Shown: positions 8,833 to 15,630 of the stretch, one piece after another
Position numbering within the stretch: the first letter of the stretch is position 1
Layout of the letters: each line of letters starts with the position of its first letter
NCBI GenBank assembly: GCA_013003535.1
Contig: JABDIY010000162.1
Span: 1 to 58,129, forward strand
Direction: 5' to 3'
From: Acidimicrobiales bacterium
GTDB taxonomy: Bacteria > Actinomycetota > Acidimicrobiia > Acidimicrobiales > SZUA-35
DNA length: 58,129 nucleotides
The notes under the pieces: model-generated
The model's database searches: none
What the model was told of the DNA's origin: nothing
What the model saw: only the letters and a program-made list of their open reading frames with translations
Program-made: the position numbers and the translations under genes

Positions 8833-11800
8833 CTAGGAAGACGGCGCCGTGTTCGTGGTGGTCGGCTCGGGCATGGGAGCGGAGCCGCGGTCTGTGGAAG
8901 TGGGAGAATCGCGCAGATCGATGACGCTGCGTCTGACCTTCTCGCTGACCACCTTCGACGATTCGCCCGGTTTCATTGAAACCCCATACAGCACGTCAGC
9001 GGCCTCCATCGTTCTCTTTTGGTGGCTGACGATGATCAGCTGAGCGTCGTCGCGAAATTCCTGCACCAGCGTGAGGAATCGGTTCAGGTTGAAATCATCC
9101 AGGGCCGCCTCTACCTCGTCCATTACATAAAAGGGGGAAGGACGCGACCGGAAAACCGCAAACAAGAATGCCAGGGCGGTGAGAGATCGTTCGCCGCCAG
9201 AGAGGAGCGACAGCTTCTTCACGTTTTTCCCTGACGGCTTGGCCTCGATCTCAACACCGGTGTTCAAGATGTCATGTGGTTCGGTGAGAATCACCGCTCC
9301 CTTCCCACCCGGGAACAGCATCTCGAAGAGTTCGGTGAAGTTCGTTGCCACGTCGGCATAGGCAGCCGCAAAGACGCCCACGATCTGCTCGTCCACCTCT
9401 CGGATCAGGTGCAGTAACTCGCGCCGGGAACTCTTGACGTCGTCCATCTGGCCGGTGACGAACTCGTAGCGCTCTTTGAGCTCCTCGAATTCCTCGAGGG
9501 CCAGTGGATTGATCGGTCCCATCGCTTTGAGTTCACGATCCAAGTTACGGAGGCGGGCTTCGGGGCTCAGCCCTTCTGGGGTCTCGGGTCGCGGGGACTC
9601 CATCGCGGCGTGCGGTTCCATGTCGAGATCCCGCCGCACCGTCTCGGTGAGAGTTTCCAACCGAACGCGGTCTTCGGCCTCGGCCAAGTCCACACGGTTC
9701 TTCCGGTTCCGAACGGCCTCGAGTTCCCGCTCAGCAGCCGCTCGTTCAGTTCGGTGCCCATTGAGTGTGACTCCCACCTGACGAGCTGCTTCGCTCTGAG
9801 CTTGGCTTGCAGAATTCAGGCCTGTGAGCCAGCCATCTACCGTCTCCCGCTTGGAAAACAGTTGCTGTGTGAGATCCTTCACTGCGCCCAATGCCGACTG
9901 GATGACTTCGCGGCGGGCCCGAGCCTGGTCTCGCTCCGAGACGAGCCGTGTTAGTCGATCTTCGATCTCGTTTCGCCGAGTCGTGATCATCTCGCGACGC
10001 TCGGAGATTGCCGCCTCTCTCATTCCGACATCGCTTTTGAGACCAGCAACGAGTCTGGCCCGCTGTTCCAATGCGGTGCGCGCCTCCGCTACGGTTTGCG
10101 CCCGATCCAGCTGGGCTTTCTCATCGGCCTCCAGGCCCGGCAACTTCAGTTGCAGTGACGCCAATTGTTGTCGCTCGGCCGCAGCTCGCTCCGTGATCTC
10201 GTACCGCTGCCGGCTCAGCTGCTTGCGGGTCTCTTCCAGCTCGTCCAACTCTGCGGTGGCGCGCGCCGCAACCTTGGTAGCGGCCTCGACCGCAGCTGTA
10301 TGGTCGCGTTGTTCGTTCTCGGCACTACGTTGCTGCTCCCCGGTGAGGAGAAGTGTGCCTTCTGCGTCGCTCACCGCTTCGGCGACGGCATCCTGCCGCA
10401 CGCGGGCGGCCTTCGCATTGGCCTCGGCCTCGGCCTGGGCCGCACCGGTAGCGCCAGTGCGATCACCGGCGAGCCGCCATCCAGTGGGCCCCAGCCGATC
10501 CCCCATCTTGGTGACCACCGTGACTCCGGGGTGCGTACTGACGATGTCGGCGGCGTCGGACCACGAACCGGGTACAGCGACCACATTGTGCAGAAGCTGA
10601 TCGAGCAGCGCCGACACTTCGTCCCGGTCAGCCCGCACCAATGAGCGAAGGGCAACGGCCTCCTCTCCCAAATCGGAGGGGAGATTGGTTTGTGACTTAT
10701 CCAGTTGGAGTGAGCCCAGCGGCAGAACTGCCCCCGCAATGTGCGCATCTGTGAGATCGGAAAGTGCCCGCCGGGCGTTGGTTTGGGAGTCCACCAGCAC
10801 GGCTTCCAACGCCTCGGATGCGGCTGCCTCAACTGCACCCTCCCAGCCGTCATCTACTGCGATGAGGTCGAGGAGCGTGCCCATGACTCCCGCTGTACCG
10901 GTCAGGGCGTCGACGCCCGCCCGGTTACGAGCCTCGGCCAACGCCTGGGCAAGGGCGTCGGCTCGCGCCTGCCATTTGGCAACGTCGTCGTCCACGGTTC
11001 TTCGCTGGTCGTTGGCTGCCCGTAATGCTGCCTCGGCCTCGACCAGCGATGCGTTGGCGCCGATGAGGAAACCCTCCAGTTCCTCGGCCCTGGCCGGAGC
11101 AGTCCTCAAAACTTCTTCGGCACCGGATCGCTCCGAAACCAGCCGATCGCGCCGCACCGACAGCGCAGAGATCTGGTCGTTGAGTCGGCTGTCCTCAGCC
11201 TGATCCCGCTGGGCGGCCGATTCCAAAGCGCTCAGTTGAGCCCGAACCTCAGCCGCCTCGTTGCCGGGCGGGGACACGCCGTCACCCCACTGCTGCTCGA
11301 AAGCCAGCCGCTCGGCTTCGAGTTCCTTTTCCGCTGCTCTGGCTCGAGCACGGTCGGGTTTCAGGGTTTCGGTGTCGGCCTCTACCGCCGCCATGTCCTG
11401 GGCCAATCGAGCGCTCTCGGCCTCTAGTGATGCCACCAGACCCTCGTCGACGGCGGACTGTAACTCACCTTCGAGGCGTCGGCGCCGCTCCCCCACCACG
11501 TTGGTCTGCCCAATGATACGTTCCCGAATGGAACGGGCTCGCCCCAGCACATCGTCGACATCGGATCCGCCGAGCGCGGCCAGCTCGGCTTCCCCGTCGA
11601 GAATTTTCGCATCGAGGCGGGCAAGGTCGCTCTGGAGTTCCTGCTCTCGGTGAGCGGAGGCGGTGCGGTCGCGTTTATGAGTTTCGAGACGGTCCATCAA
11701 CGACCGAAGTTCTCGACCAACCAGGAAAGCCCGAAGGGCCGAAGCCTCGCCGAGAACCTCGCCGTGCCGACGGGCTGCGTCGGCTTGTTTCTCCAGCGGT

Positions 11801-12408
11801 TTGAGCTGACGTTTGACCTCGCGCACGAGATCGGCCACCCGGTTCAGACTCTCCTCGGTGGATGCTAGGCGACGCTCGGCCCGCTCCTTGCGCTTGCGAA
11901 ACTTCAGTACCCCGGCGGCCTCTTCGATGATGCCCCGGCGATCTTCGGGACGAGCATTGAGGACAGCATCAATCTGGCCCTGAGAGACGATGATGTGCTG
12001 TTGCCGGCCAACGCCGGAATCACTCAAAAGTTCGGTGATATCAAGTAGACGGCAACTGGCACCGTTGATCCGATAGTCCGATTCGCCGGACCGAAACAGC
12101 GTGCGAGTAATTGTGACTTCGGAGAACTCGATGGGCAGGGTCCCGTCGGAATTGTCGATCGTGAGCGAGACCTCGGCCCGACCGAGTGCAGCCTTGCTTT
12201 GCGTTCCCGCAAAGATCACGTCTTCCATTTTCGCCGAGCGCACCGCGCTGGGAGCCTGCGCTCCGAGCACCCATGCAATGGCGTCTACAACATTGCTCTT
12301 CCCGCTTCCGTTAGGGCCGACCACCACCGTGATGCCGTCTTCAAGATCTAGCGTGGCATGGTCCGCGAAGGACTTGAACCCCTTTATCGACAACGTTCGC
12401 AAATGCAT
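8833..12408 (-). CDS. smc: Chromosome segregation ATPase SMC
   Basis: Core ATPase of the SMC-ScpAB condensin complex, which folds and segregates the chromosome (1191 aa, normal length). The N-terminal head has Walker A GPNGSGKS (31-38). Two long coiled coils flank a hinge at roughly 500-650 (GVMGTLLDLIAVDDGWEGA, then ALSDLTDAH and GDRLGPTGWRLAGD). The C-terminal head has the signature LLSGGERS (about 1068-1075) and Walker B FYVMDE (1093-1098), followed by a Pro/Thr-rich tail of about 25 residues. A TACTCT hexamer lies 8 nt before the ATG. It is separated from fpg/rnc by a divergent glycoside hydrolase gene. Confidence 0.97.
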   Translation of the reverse strand: MHLRTLSIKGFKSFADHATLDLEDGITVVVGPNGSGKSNVVDAIAWVLGAQAPSAVRSAKMEDVIFAGTQSKAALGRAEVSLTIDNSDGTLPIEFSEVTITRTLFRSGESDYRINGASCRLLDITELLSDSGVGRQQHIIVSQGQIDAVLNARPEDRRGIIEEAAGVLKFRKRKERAERRLASTEESLNRVADLVREVKRQLKPLEKQADAARRHGEVLGEASALRAFLVGRELRSLMDRLETHKRDRTASAHREQELQSDLARLDAKILDGEAELAALGGSDVDDVLGRARSIRERIIGQTNVVGERRRRLEGELQSAVDEGLVASLEAESARLAQDMAAVEADTETLKPDRARARAAEKELEAERLAFEQQWGDGVSPPGNEAAEVRAQLSALESAAQRDQAEDSRLNDQISALSVRRDRLVSERSGAEEVLRTAPARAEELEGFLIGANASLVEAEAALRAANDQRRTVDDDVAKWQARADALAQALAEARNRAGVDALTGTAGVMGTLLDLIAVDDGWEGAVEAAASEALEAVLVDSQTNARRALSDLTDAHIAGAVLPLGSLQLDKSQTNLPSDLGEEAVALRSLVRADRDEVSALLDQLLHNVVAVPGSWSDAADIVSTHPGVTVVTKMGDRLGPTGWRLAGDRTGATGAAQAEAEANAKAARVRQDAVAEAVSDAEGTLLLTGEQQRSAENEQRDHTAAVEAATKVAARATAELDELEETRKQLSRQRYEITERAAAERQQLASLQLKLPGLEADEKAQLDRAQTVAEARTALEQRARLVAGLKSDVGMREAAISERREMITTRRNEIEDRLTRLVSERDQARARREVIQSALGAVKDLTQQLFSKRETVDGWLTGLNSASQAQSEAARQVGVTLNGHRTERAAAERELEAVRNRKNRVDLAEAEDRVRLETLTETVRRDLDMEPHAAMESPRPETPEGLSPEARLRNLDRELKAMGPINPLALEEFEELKERYEFVTGQMDDVKSSRRELLHLIREVDEQIVGVFAAAYADVATNFTELFEMLFPGGKGAVILTEPHDILNTGVEIEAKPSGKNVKKLSLLSGGERSLTALAFLFAVFRSRPSPFYVMDEVEAALDDFNLNRFLTLVQEFRDDAQLIIVSHQKRTMEAADVLYGVSMKPGESSKVVSEKVRRSVIDLRDSPTSTDRGSAPMPEPTTTNTAPSS

Positions 12409-12608: not shown

Positions 12609-14045
12609 GTGCGGTTCCGGGTGTTGACAGTCATGGTTCTGGCCATTCTGCTGCCAGGATGCGTGACCGGCGAGGATCCTGAACTGCTCCCCTTCAACGA
12701 CAGTTCAACCACCTCGTCGGCGAGTTCAGACGATAGTACGACCACCGATATCCCGGCACTACCACCGCAAACTCCGGCCGGAGGCGTCGGCCCGCCAGTG
12801 CCAACCTCACGGGCGCCGAACTCCTCAGCGCCAGATCCGACCAACCAATCCTCGACCACGGTCGACTCGCCGACCCAGAGCTCATCGTCCTCCAGCACCG
12901 CATCCCCTACTACTGCGGCACCAACCACTCCATCGTCAGTCGCAACATCCAGCACCGTGCCCTCCAGCGAGCCAAGCAATACAACAACCTCTTCCCCCGC
13001 CAGTGCCTCCACTACACCGGGGCCTGCCCCGAGCATTCCCGCTGTCTCACGGCTTCGTCTGGGTGTCTCGCCGGGAGGCGGCGTCATCGACCAAGGGACC
13101 GCCGCTCTCAGCCGGGACCTCGATGCCATGGCGGCAATGGGGCTTACCCAATTGCGACTTGATTTCGATTGGAGTCGAATTGAACCAATCGAAGGTGATT
13201 TCAGCTGGACCGCAACCGATCGCATCGTCTCAGCAGCCAGGGCACGAGGAATCAAGGTGCACGGTCTGCTCACTTATACGCCGGCTTGGGCTCGACCACC
13301 GGGCACAAACGAGAAGCATCCCCCAACCAGGGACGCGGATTTCGCCAACTTCAGCAGGGCTGTGGTGGAACGGTATCGTTCACAAGGGATCAGCTCTTGG
13401 GAGGTATGGAACGAACCCAACATCCCCAACTTCTGGTCCGCCGCTGGCGGCCCCGATGCCAACCGTTATGCGACGCTTCTCAACGCTTCGGCCGTTGCAA
13501 TCCACAGCGCCGACCCCGCCGCAACCGTGGTCACCGGAGGACTCGCCCCGGCGGTTGACACCGCCGGTGTATCGATCGCCCCTGGGACATTCCTGACCAG
13601 GCTTTTCGCCACGCTGGACTCGGGCATCGTCCAAGGCGTCGCCATCCATCCTTACAGTTATCCGGCTCTCCCCACCTCAGCTTTGAGTTGGAACACCTTT
13701 GCCCGCCTGCCGGAATTCCAACAGATCGTTGCGGTCGGTGAAGGGCGGGCCCTGCCGATCTGGATCACCGAGTTTGGAGCACCAACGGGGTCGTCGAGTT
13801 CGGCGGTCAGCACTGCCGACCAAGCTGCGATCGTGCAGGATGCGCTCAGCTGCCTTCTTGGTGTGAGCTGGATTGGCCCGGTCTTCCTCTACAACATGCG
13901 CGACCGGACCGGCGGCAATCCCAATGACGTGGAAGACAACTTCGGACTTCTGAGGGCCGACTGGTCTTCCAAGCCCGTGGTGGCAGTGCTACAGACCCAC
14001 ATTACCGACCCCGGCAGTTTCGGCACGGGTTGCGCTGGCTGGTAG
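12609..14045 (+). CDS. Secreted lipoprotein glycoside hydrolase (TIM-barrel, clan GH-A type)
   Basis: Predicted cell-surface glycosidase of 478 aa. A lipoprotein signal with lipobox LLPGC (Cys18) is followed by a very long Ser/Thr/Pro-rich linker (about 30-145), probably extended and possibly glycosylated. A (beta/alpha)8 domain follows (148-478). Its clan GH-A features are visible: LRLDFDWSRIEP, the acid/base Glu269 in WEVWNEPN, the IHPYSYP segment, and the nucleophile Glu388 in WITEFGAP. The pattern resembles GH39/GH5-like beta-glycosidases; the substrate cannot be assigned. GTG 12609 is used; GTG 12621 and ATG 12633 would also leave a signal peptide. It interrupts the usual fpg-smc gene order. 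Confidence 0.85.
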   Translation: MRFRVLTVMVLAILLPGCVTGEDPELLPFNDSSTTSSASSDDSTTTDIPALPPQTPAGGVGPPVPTSRAPNSSAPDPTNQSSTTVDSPTQSSSSSSTASPTTAAPTTPSSVATSSTVPSSEPSNTTTSSPASASTTPGPAPSIPAVSRLRLGVSPGGGVIDQGTAALSRDLDAMAAMGLTQLRLDFDWSRIEPIEGDFSWTATDRIVSAARARGIKVHGLLTYTPAWARPPGTNEKHPPTRDADFANFSRAVVERYRSQGISSWEVWNEPNIPNFWSAAGGPDANRYATLLNASAVAIHSADPAATVVTGGLAPAVDTAGVSIAPGTFLTRLFATLDSGIVQGVAIHPYSYPALPTSALSWNTFARLPEFQQIVAVGEGRALPIWITEFGAPTGSSSSAVSTADQAAIVQDALSCLLGVSWIGPVFLYNMRDRTGGNPNDVEDNFGLLRADWSSKPVVAVLQTHITDPGSFGTGCAGW

Positions 14046-14060
14046 GCCAGTGGGAGAACG

Positions 14061-14894
14061 CTAGACCTGCGTGGAGCAGTAGTAGACGACGTGGCCCTTG
14101 AACTTACCCTTGAGAATTGGCGTTCGCGAACGAGGACTGAGCTGGCCTTCCTTGCCGTACACCGCGATGTGCTCTCCGAATCCGCCCGGGTTGCCTTCGA
14201 TGTCCACAAACGGCCGGCTCTCCAAGGTGGTGCCACGATACTTGATGGCGTCGTGAAGGATCGTAGTGATCGAACGGTTCAACCGACGCAGTTCCTGCGT
14301 TGAGAGGGCCTTGGCCGGGCGGTCATACATGAGGCCGGCGTCGAAGAGAATCTCGTCGCTATAGAGGTCTCCAATGCCCACAAAGTTGTCCGGGTCGGTG
14401 AGGAACAGTTTCAACGGGAGGTCGCTGTTTAGCACGAAACGCCCGAACACGTTCCACGGAACTGGGTCAGCCAGCAAATCAAGGCCCCGTCCCCGGTGGA
14501 TGTATTGATCGGCGTCCTCTGTGGGGACCACGTTGATTTCGCCTGAGCCGTCTTTGTCCACGAAGCGAAGATCTCCGCCCTGAGTAAAGGTGATGATCAC
14601 CTGGGTGTTGGTGACGATTTCAGCACGCGACGGAACCCTCGAAATCACGGTCTCGGGCCCCGGTTTCATGATCAACGTATGATCGTTGTCCAGCCGCGTG
14701 ACCAGCGTCATTCCTACCCGGGTGGTTTCGACGAACTTGGCGCCTTCGAGGACCTGGGTGAAAGTCTTCTTGGTCCTGTGGAGCGGCGACGACTTCAACC
14801 CCTTGACCTCCACCGCCTTGACCTTGCGACCGGCGGTGTCGCGCTCGAGATCGCGTCGAATGATCTCAAGTTCGGGCAGTTCTGGCTCAACCAT
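14061..14894 (-). CDS. Divergent Fpg/MutM-like DNA glycosylase homologue, probably altered activity
   Basis: Homologue of formamidopyrimidine-DNA glycosylase (277 aa), at the conserved fpg position after rnc. The fold markers are clear: PELPELEIIRRDLE at the N-terminus, the H2TH segment FVGIGDLYSDEILFDAGL (171-188), and the ESRPFVDIEGNPGGFGEHI-AVYGKEG region before the finger. Key residues differ, however. The Pro that must be residue 1 after Met removal is Pro4, behind Met-Val-Glu. The H2TH Asn (GxGN) is Asp176. The CxxC of the zinc finger reads S253-P-R-S256, and of the second pair only Cys273 remains. The start overlaps the rnc stop by 8 nt and no in-frame start places Pro first. Bifunctional Fpg chemistry therefore looks unlikely (inference from by-eye alignment). 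Confidence 0.8.
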   Translation of the reverse strand: MVEPELPELEIIRRDLERDTAGRKVKAVEVKGLKSSPLHRTKKTFTQVLEGAKFVETTRVGMTLVTRLDNDHTLIMKPGPETVISRVPSRAEIVTNTQVIITFTQGGDLRFVDKDGSGEINVVPTEDADQYIHRGRGLDLLADPVPWNVFGRFVLNSDLPLKLFLTDPDNFVGIGDLYSDEILFDAGLMYDRPAKALSTQELRRLNRSITTILHDAIKYRGTTLESRPFVDIEGNPGGFGEHIAVYGKEGQLSPRSRTPILKGKFKGHVVYYCSTQV

Positions 14895-15630
14895 TGGAGT
14901 CCTCGGTTACTTCAAAAGCATTAGTTGCTGGCGTTCTTTGAGCGCCGCGGGCACTGAGCACTTGCCAGGCCGCCTCGGCTGCGGCCTGCTCGGCTCGCTT
15001 CTTCGACGTTCCTCTGCCTTCACCGAAGTTCTCGCCCTCGACGAATGCCACCGCGGAGAAGCGACGATCATGATCGGGGCCCGTGGCCGCCAGGCGGTAC
15101 GTGGGAGCAGGCAGGTTCAGTACGGAGGTGAGTTCTTGAAGGCGTGTTTTGAAGTCTTCGCCGCCGGGGCGTCGAGAGCTCTCCAGGATGGTCTCCTCCA
15201 GCAAGAATAGGGCGCTGTCTCGGGCTGGCTCCCATCCGCCATCGACGAAAACGGCACCGATGATCGCTTCGAACACATCGGCAAGAATGGACTCCTTCTC
15301 TCTTCCTCCCGAAGAGTCCTCGCCTTTTCCCAAACGGAGCATCGCCCCGAGGTTCATCGACTCGGCGACCGATGCGAGACTGGAGGTATTCACCACCGAT
15401 GCACGCAACTTGGCCAACTCCCCCTCCGGGAGATCGCCGTAGTTGTCGTAGGAATAGCTCGTCACGGCGAGCCCAACGACGGAGTCGCCCAAGAACTCCA
15501 GACGTTCATTGGAGTCATGGCCGGGGTTCTCGGCGATGAAACTTCGGTGGGTTAGCGCCAATTCCACAAGTGACCAGTTGCTGAACTGGTGATGGAGTTG
15601 TGCCGCGAGTTTTTGGAATTCAGGCGTCAG
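14887..15630 (-). CDS. rnc: Ribonuclease III, probable CTG start
   Basis: Endonuclease cleaving double-stranded RNA in rRNA and mRNA processing. The catalytic domain has ERLEFLGDS (signature) and the second acidic site DVFEAIIGAVFVDGG; a double-stranded-RNA-binding domain fills the C-terminal third (DFKTRLQELTSVL to QAAAEAAWQVL). The first canonical start in frame, GTG 15567, would delete the first helix. Upstream, the same frame encodes LAAQLHHQFSNWSL, a good match to RNase III helix 1, back to a stop 9 nt before CTG 15630. That CTG overlaps the acpP stop as CTGA and is taken here as the start (247 aa). Starting at 15567 would give 226 aa. Confidence 0.88.
   Translation of the reverse strand: MTPEFQKLAAQLHHQFSNWSLVELALTHRSFIAENPGHDSNERLEFLGDSVVGLAVTSYSYDNYGDLPEGELAKLRASVVNTSSLASVAESMNLGAMLRLGKGEDSSGGREKESILADVFEAIIGAVFVDGGWEPARDSALFLLEETILESSRRPGGEDFKTRLQELTSVLNLPAPTYRLAATGPDHDRRFSAVAFVEGENFGEGRGTSKKRAEQAAAEAAWQVLSARGAQRTPATNAFEVTEDSNG

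Follow-up and report, generated by a model that had tools for sequence, protein, structure and literature searches.

A full-length rnc-linked Fpg homologue in Acidimicrobiales, predicted to be non-catalytic and accompanied by an unlinked canonical Fpg

The rnc-linked Fpg homologue of the window

The window, by which we mean the whole analysed stretch of 58,129 nucleotides, encodes a 277-residue Fpg homologue (MVEPELPELEIIRRDLE...LSPRSRTPILKGKFKGHVVYYCSTQV; Table 1). The 5' end of its ORF reads ATG GTT GAG CCA GAA CTG CCC GAA, corresponding to MVE-PELPE, and, as the preliminary description had stated, PELPE stands behind Met-Val-Glu with no alternative start to restore it. Since no start codon adjoins the Pro codon in the window ORF, this Pro is residue 4, and the candidate of a hidden Pro exposed by another start was rejected on the same ground; the free N-terminal Pro left after Met removal, by which an Fpg is recognised, is missing. 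In Pfam the protein matched Fapy_DNA_glyco (55.6 bits, cut-off 25.5) and H2TH (49.2 bits, cut-off 34.7), both of which are present in 20/20 aligned family members, while zf-FPG_IleRS matched neither the window protein nor any of 20 non-catalytic family members. The TIGR00577 fpg score of 149.4 bits lies below the cut-off of 203.3 and therefore short of the equivalog level, and NFACT_N, the domain by which NFACT/RqcH membership was assessed, reached only 15.5 bits of the 31 required, over the H2TH part alone. The nearest solved structure is MutM, along the whole length, a profile of 20 relatives matching MutM 1l1t with an E value of 3e-50 over positions 2-272; an AlphaFold2 model of the window protein built from 3 sequences had a pLDDT of 31 and was set aside.

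Table 1. Features of the rnc-linked fpg locus, in window coordinates
Feature	Position	Strand	Evidence
Rnc-linked Fpg homologue, predicted non-catalytic, 277 aa	14061..14894	-	ORF, Pfam, TIGR00577, MutM alignment
Codon of Pro4, aligned with the catalytic N-terminal Pro and following Met-Val-Glu	14883..14885	-	ORF reading
Codon of Met62, aligned with catalytic Lys60	14709..14711	-	alignment to Bst MutM
Asp115-Gly116-Ser117 replacing the R112-x-F114 intercalation loop	14544..14552	-	alignment
GIGD replacing the H2TH GxGN	14367..14378	-	ORF and alignment
SPRS replacing the first zinc-finger CxxC	14127..14138	-	ORF and alignment
Cys273, sole finger Cys left; kept in 98/98 non-catalytic copies	14076..14078	-	residue table
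rnc (RNase III), upstream; ORF overlaps fpg ORF by 8 bases	14887..15567	-	ORF, Pfam
Glycoside-hydrolase-like gene between fpg and smc	12609..14045	+	weak GH42/GH10/GH5 matches
smc, conserved downstream neighbour; inserted gene between here	8833..12408	-	ORF, Pfam

Aligned to B. stearothermophilus (Bst) MutM, whose residue numbering is used here, the window protein carries the GIGD, the SPRS and the single finger Cys that the preliminary description had pointed out and, in addition, the changes K60 to M, H74 to K, M77 to P, R112 to D, F114 to S and R264 to H. Three zinc ligands are gone, and with them the C4 zinc finger. None of the seven core residues K60, H74, M77, R112, F114, N174 and R264 is present, and all seven are found in L001, another Fpg of the same genome. 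The protein keeps Glu3, Glu6, Tyr242, K258 and one Cys. The roles assigned to these residues are those in MutM structures, where K60, H74, M77, R112, F114 and N174 serve lesion sensing and phosphate pinching.

The gene had been placed at the canonical rnc-fpg-smc site, which holds in that rnc adjoins and smc lies downstream, but not in the immediate junction with smc, as a glycoside-hydrolase-like gene on the opposite strand intervenes here. The product of this gene is Ser/Thr-rich and secreted-looking, and the gene is missing in two sister genomes, where smc lies within 133 bases of fpg. More widely, rnc upstream and/or smc downstream was found on the same strand in 152/152 loci (both in 135), and the end of rnc runs into the fpg ORF at 74/93 non-catalytic and 49/54 intact loci. 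At two loci of family f104 (L278, L279) a divergent second Fpg/Nei-like gene (PELPELD...) lies between rnc and the non-catalytic copy.

Residue loss and conservation among relatives

An orthologue is present in 34 of the 39 genomes of the window's family and in all 20 with completeness of 90% or more and contamination of 5% or less. The loci of 32 of the 34 were fetched, and the check on orthologues that the preliminary description had proposed gave a uniform answer, the catalytic-residue losses being common to 32/32; among the carriers of the same non-catalytic gene are two sister uncultured Acidimicrobiales MAGs (L037, L038). At the place of Pro4 these orthologues have Leu (27/32), Phe (2/32) or Pro (3/32, in the window's genus only), and the number of residues ahead of this place varies. 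Given Leu or Phe in 29/32 together with the variable N-terminal length, Pro4 of the window's genus looks like a chance reversion, and not simply an ancestral Pro masked by extension. A NEIL3-like Val2 nucleophile (MVE...) was considered separately and ruled out, relatives beginning with MAQ, MVK, MIA, MAD, MN or MK.

Selection on the non-catalytic copies is purifying. Nei-Gojobori dN/dS is 0.07-0.08 within the window's genus, which upholds the earlier view of a gene that is not decaying into a pseudogene, and among the non-catalytic pairs listed with finite values it spans 0.04-0.47, about equal to the 0.08-0.56 of intact pairs. No internal stops occur within the listed matches, and invariant residues remain across 20 diverse family members. 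The non-catalytic copies retain the core of the fold, the H2TH helices including the R203-R204-x-x-R207 stretch and, from the former finger, its R-x-R. The 32 same-family loci with the same losses, the dN/dS values and the absent stops together exclude sequencing error or decay.

To classify rnc-linked Fpg across the order and class we used the seven core residues. The 152 classified loci fall into 54 that keep 7/7 and 98 that keep 0-3, with none at 4-6, and as the 80 loci of the order were the top of the query similarity list, the non-catalytic share is not a measure of prevalence. With two intact references the table has 154 rows, 56 at 7/7 and 98 at 0-3, and such bimodality places the coincident losses far beyond chance. 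The 98 copies, termed non-catalytic here by prediction from their residues, span 22 of the 51 family codes of the set. Among them K60 is kept in 4, M77 in none, R112 in 3, F114 in none and N174 in 4. Erosion elsewhere is graded, the aligned Pro (27/98), the first CxxC (28/98) and R264 (27/98) still being there in some; Glu3 is kept in 85/98, and Glu6 and one Cys in 98/98. Replacement of N174 by Pro or Asp recurs, the change to Pro being found in 27 copies of the main set, 4/4 of f71, 2/3 of f64, 2/9 of f92 and 1/2 of f104. Gained conservation in the non-catalytic copies is limited to a few unremarkable columns, with no new conserved catalytic constellation. L119, its N-terminus cut, was omitted from the residue table, L273 is truncated, L290 is misread in its long frame, and some same-order families with weak matches lie outside the classified set. 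A scan of viral contigs for relatives found none, and plasmid records showed nothing beyond distant ordinary mutM. At one locus (L182; G420, f85) the rnc-linked Fpg has 7/7 core residues but two zinc Cys gone (CPRT ... YS), and its finger may be without zinc.

In other classes of the phylum, where 26 loci were examined, the non-catalytic copies are nine of f92 and two of f104. Nine further rnc-linked Fpg of another class (f98: L254-L257, L260, L262, L263, L266, L268) all keep the core at 7/7 and the zinc ligands, and in each a GTG or ATG start sits at the place of the Pro codon (MELPEVEV...), immediately preceded by a stop codon in L255, L256 and L266. With Met1 for Pro and no Fpg-B (see below) found in their genomes, these may possibly use a primary-amine nucleophile.

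An unlinked canonical Fpg and the history of loss

The second, canonical fpg whose search had been proposed in the preliminary description does exist in the window's genome, unlinked to rnc (L001 at G000:C90), and we refer to its type as Fpg-B. L001 and the Fpg-B copies read elsewhere are canonical at 13/13 positions checked, one misread copy excepted. The same genome holds four more Fpg/Nei genes (L002, L003, L004 and L006, of PEGVE, PEGHT, PELPEVQ and PEGDS types). In a search with L001, Fpg-B was found in 87/98 non-catalytic genomes vs 0/54 intact ones, mostly at 47-70% identity, the call being hand-read from search tables at a threshold of about 47% identity and one genome (G043) being counted on a 91-residue hit. 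The association has a Fisher p of 1.5e-30, a value that ignores relatedness. Within families the same contrast appears, f71 having four non-catalytic genomes with Fpg-B and four intact genomes without, and f14 one with and three without. In other classes, Fpg-B was found in 11/11 non-catalytic genomes (f92, f104; two by partial hits), in 0/5 genomes whose intact locus is complete and in 0/9 f98 genomes. Further, an N-terminal M-PELPEVET coding pattern searched in 50 genomes gave exactly one match in 46; the match was the rnc-linked gene in all 10 genomes where the rnc-linked Fpg is intact and an unlinked gene in the remaining ones, except in G029, where it was a partly eroded rnc-linked gene.

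Fpg-B was undetected in 11 of the 98 non-catalytic genomes (G007, G024, G091, G208, G304, G095, G135, G029, G327, G332 and G337), some of which are incomplete. In f64 a different unlinked Fpg (L228, L231, L232, L233) stands alongside the non-catalytic rnc-linked copy; it has 12/13 key residues in three of four genomes read, R264 is replaced by Thr, Ser or Val, and L233 in addition begins TERPEVET; in f58 another Fpg-like gene is present (L173, L178). G029 has neither Fpg-B nor such an alternative, and its rnc-linked copy is only partly eroded: L077 (G029:C17, f6) keeps the Pro, Glu3, K60, H74, R112 and the zinc ligands and has lost M77, F114, N174 and R264; it would appear to be a transitional or specificity-altered enzyme.

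For the history of the locus, a tree of rnc-linked Fpg was built without the diagnostic columns, after near-identical rows had been thinned. The best tree has four changes between intact and non-catalytic states, and at least three are forced by starred branches, so that by this phylogeny catalysis is predicted to have been lost at the rnc locus at least three separate times; L090 and f64 change position from tree to tree, possibly by long-branch attraction, and starred counts alone are claimed. The non-catalytic rows comprise the main clade of the order, f71, f92, f104 and the partly eroded L077, with the joining of f104 to f92 left open by the tree. Family f71 holds both states, which track the presence of Fpg-B. 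In a tree of rnc, in which support is mostly weak, the rnc genes next to L090 and to the f71 copies lie near those of intact relatives. Fpg-B forms one clade (99*) in which the f71, f92 and f104 copies are nested within those of the order, a nesting that suggests that Fpg-B reached these three families by transfer. An independent-pairs sign test had 2-3 informative pairs; each points the way predicted, and their number is too small for significance.

Proposed role and comparison with known systems

Loss of catalytic residues is accompanied by loss of charge. Median pI and net charge are 6.6 and -1 in non-catalytic copies, 9.2 and +6.5 in intact ones and 9.4 and +7 in Fpg-B; most of the loss falls in the N-terminal domain, the window protein is near neutral (pI 7.5, net 0), and single copies vary widely (pI 5.1-9.8). 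This bears on the earlier proposal that the protein may bind DNA or recognise lesions and have new chemistry. A protein that binds damaged DNA uncut and recruits other repair would follow a logic similar to that of alkyltransferase-like proteins, and the Fpg fold, the H2TH and the finger-side R251, R253 and K/R258 are indeed retained, the finger region having a median net charge of +4. However, K60, H74, M77, R112, F114 and N174, with the intercalation and phosphate contacts they include, are gone in nearly all copies, and the vanished positive charge is hard to reconcile with general DNA scanning and makes lesion recognition less convincing, a reading that we regard as unlikely. The new chemistry fares no better, as both the contacts to DNA and the overall positive charge have disappeared and the conserved columns offer no catalytic constellation to replace the old one.

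Retention of the rnc-linked protein as an accessory or regulatory subunit of Fpg-B would account for the co-occurrence of the two, but displacement predicts the identical pattern, known Fpg is monomeric, and f58, f64 and f6 hold a non-catalytic copy without Fpg-B; this reading seems to us improbable. Lower still we place a glycosylase of altered chemistry acting through another N-terminal amine or through Glu3 alone. The retention of Glu3 and Glu6 keeps residual chemistry conceivable, and mycobacterial Nei2 without Pro2 is, according to PMC11323726, still a 5-hydroxyuracil glycosylase; yet the same source has the activity require Glu3 and Lys51, and Lys51, taken as the K60 equivalent, is lost here, while the varying N-terminal length of orthologues argues against a fixed N-terminal nucleophile, so that such an enzyme is very doubtful. 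That the gene is a decaying pseudogene, a sequencing error or a frame kept solely for rnc/smc expression coupling is scarcely credible, for although the rnc overlap is conserved, the listed matches have no stop, dN/dS is well below 1, invariant residues persist over 20 diverse members and the same losses recur in independent genomes.

Cumulatively, we consider it probable that the rnc-linked Fpg was displaced by Fpg-B, lost catalysis and was kept as a non-catalytic, protein-binding protein co-translated with RNase III. We infer both the lack of glycosylase/lyase activity and the binding role from the losses, conservation, purifying selection, synteny and ORF overlap with rnc, Fpg-B co-occurrence and repeated loss observed above. 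In the proposed sequence of events, the gene would be the vertically inherited rnc-linked Fpg of these Actinomycetota, and the unlinked canonical Fpg-B would have taken over its glycosylase/AP-lyase work; the rnc-linked copy would then have lost its nucleophile, its lesion-recognition and DNA-phosphate contacts, its zinc finger and its basic surface, and would have been retained as a folded non-catalytic protein whose job is to bind some other macromolecule, most probably a protein connected with the co-translated RNase III/SMC cluster. The ancestral enzyme probably had this non-glycosylase job as a sideline, and that would account for the retention of one and the same locus each time catalysis disappeared. 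Only tentatively, and with somewhat more doubt than confidence, we extend this to the rnc-linked Fpg of Actinomycetota at large, which may have a non-glycosylase task connected with RNase III and/or SMC, also in those genomes in which its catalysis persists; if so, the second job would show whenever an incoming Fpg-B frees the locus, the catalytic residues going and the protein remaining.

Fpg is a textbook repair enzyme. By its sequence the family of the window protein belongs to Fpg in descent and fold and is predicted to fail the defining catalytic tests, for which reason an annotation as DNA glycosylase is unsuitable, and a large, conserved non-catalytic group that arose repeatedly would mislead any inventory of repair genes in which fpg is identified by homology. 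The findings further suggest an unrecognised non-enzymatic role of the Fpg fold, and the pattern of one active copy per genome would offer a naturally repeated case in which one gene displaces another and the non-catalytic paralogue is kept. We found no paper on this group in the open-licence PMC literature searched.

Compared with bacterial Fpg/MutM (TIGR00577; 1l1t), the window protein is alike in full-length homology and in both Pfam domains, and it shares the rnc-smc gene order with its intact relatives, but lacks the free N-terminal Pro, K60, H74, M77, R112, F114, N174, R264 and the full set of zinc ligands. Mycobacterium tuberculosis Fpg2 (Rv0944) is described in PMC2734929 as an Fpg homologue without the N-terminal part that stands beside another Fpg, a truncation whose ortholog is complete in M. 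smegmatis; unlike Rv0944 as presented there, the window type is full-length with point losses and is conserved over many families. According to PMC11323726, NEIL3, in which the N-terminal Pro is replaced by Val, and mycobacterial Nei2, in which it is dispensable for base removal, resemble the window type in this one feature, whereas Nei2 needs its catalytic Lys51, and the corresponding Lys is lost in the window type.
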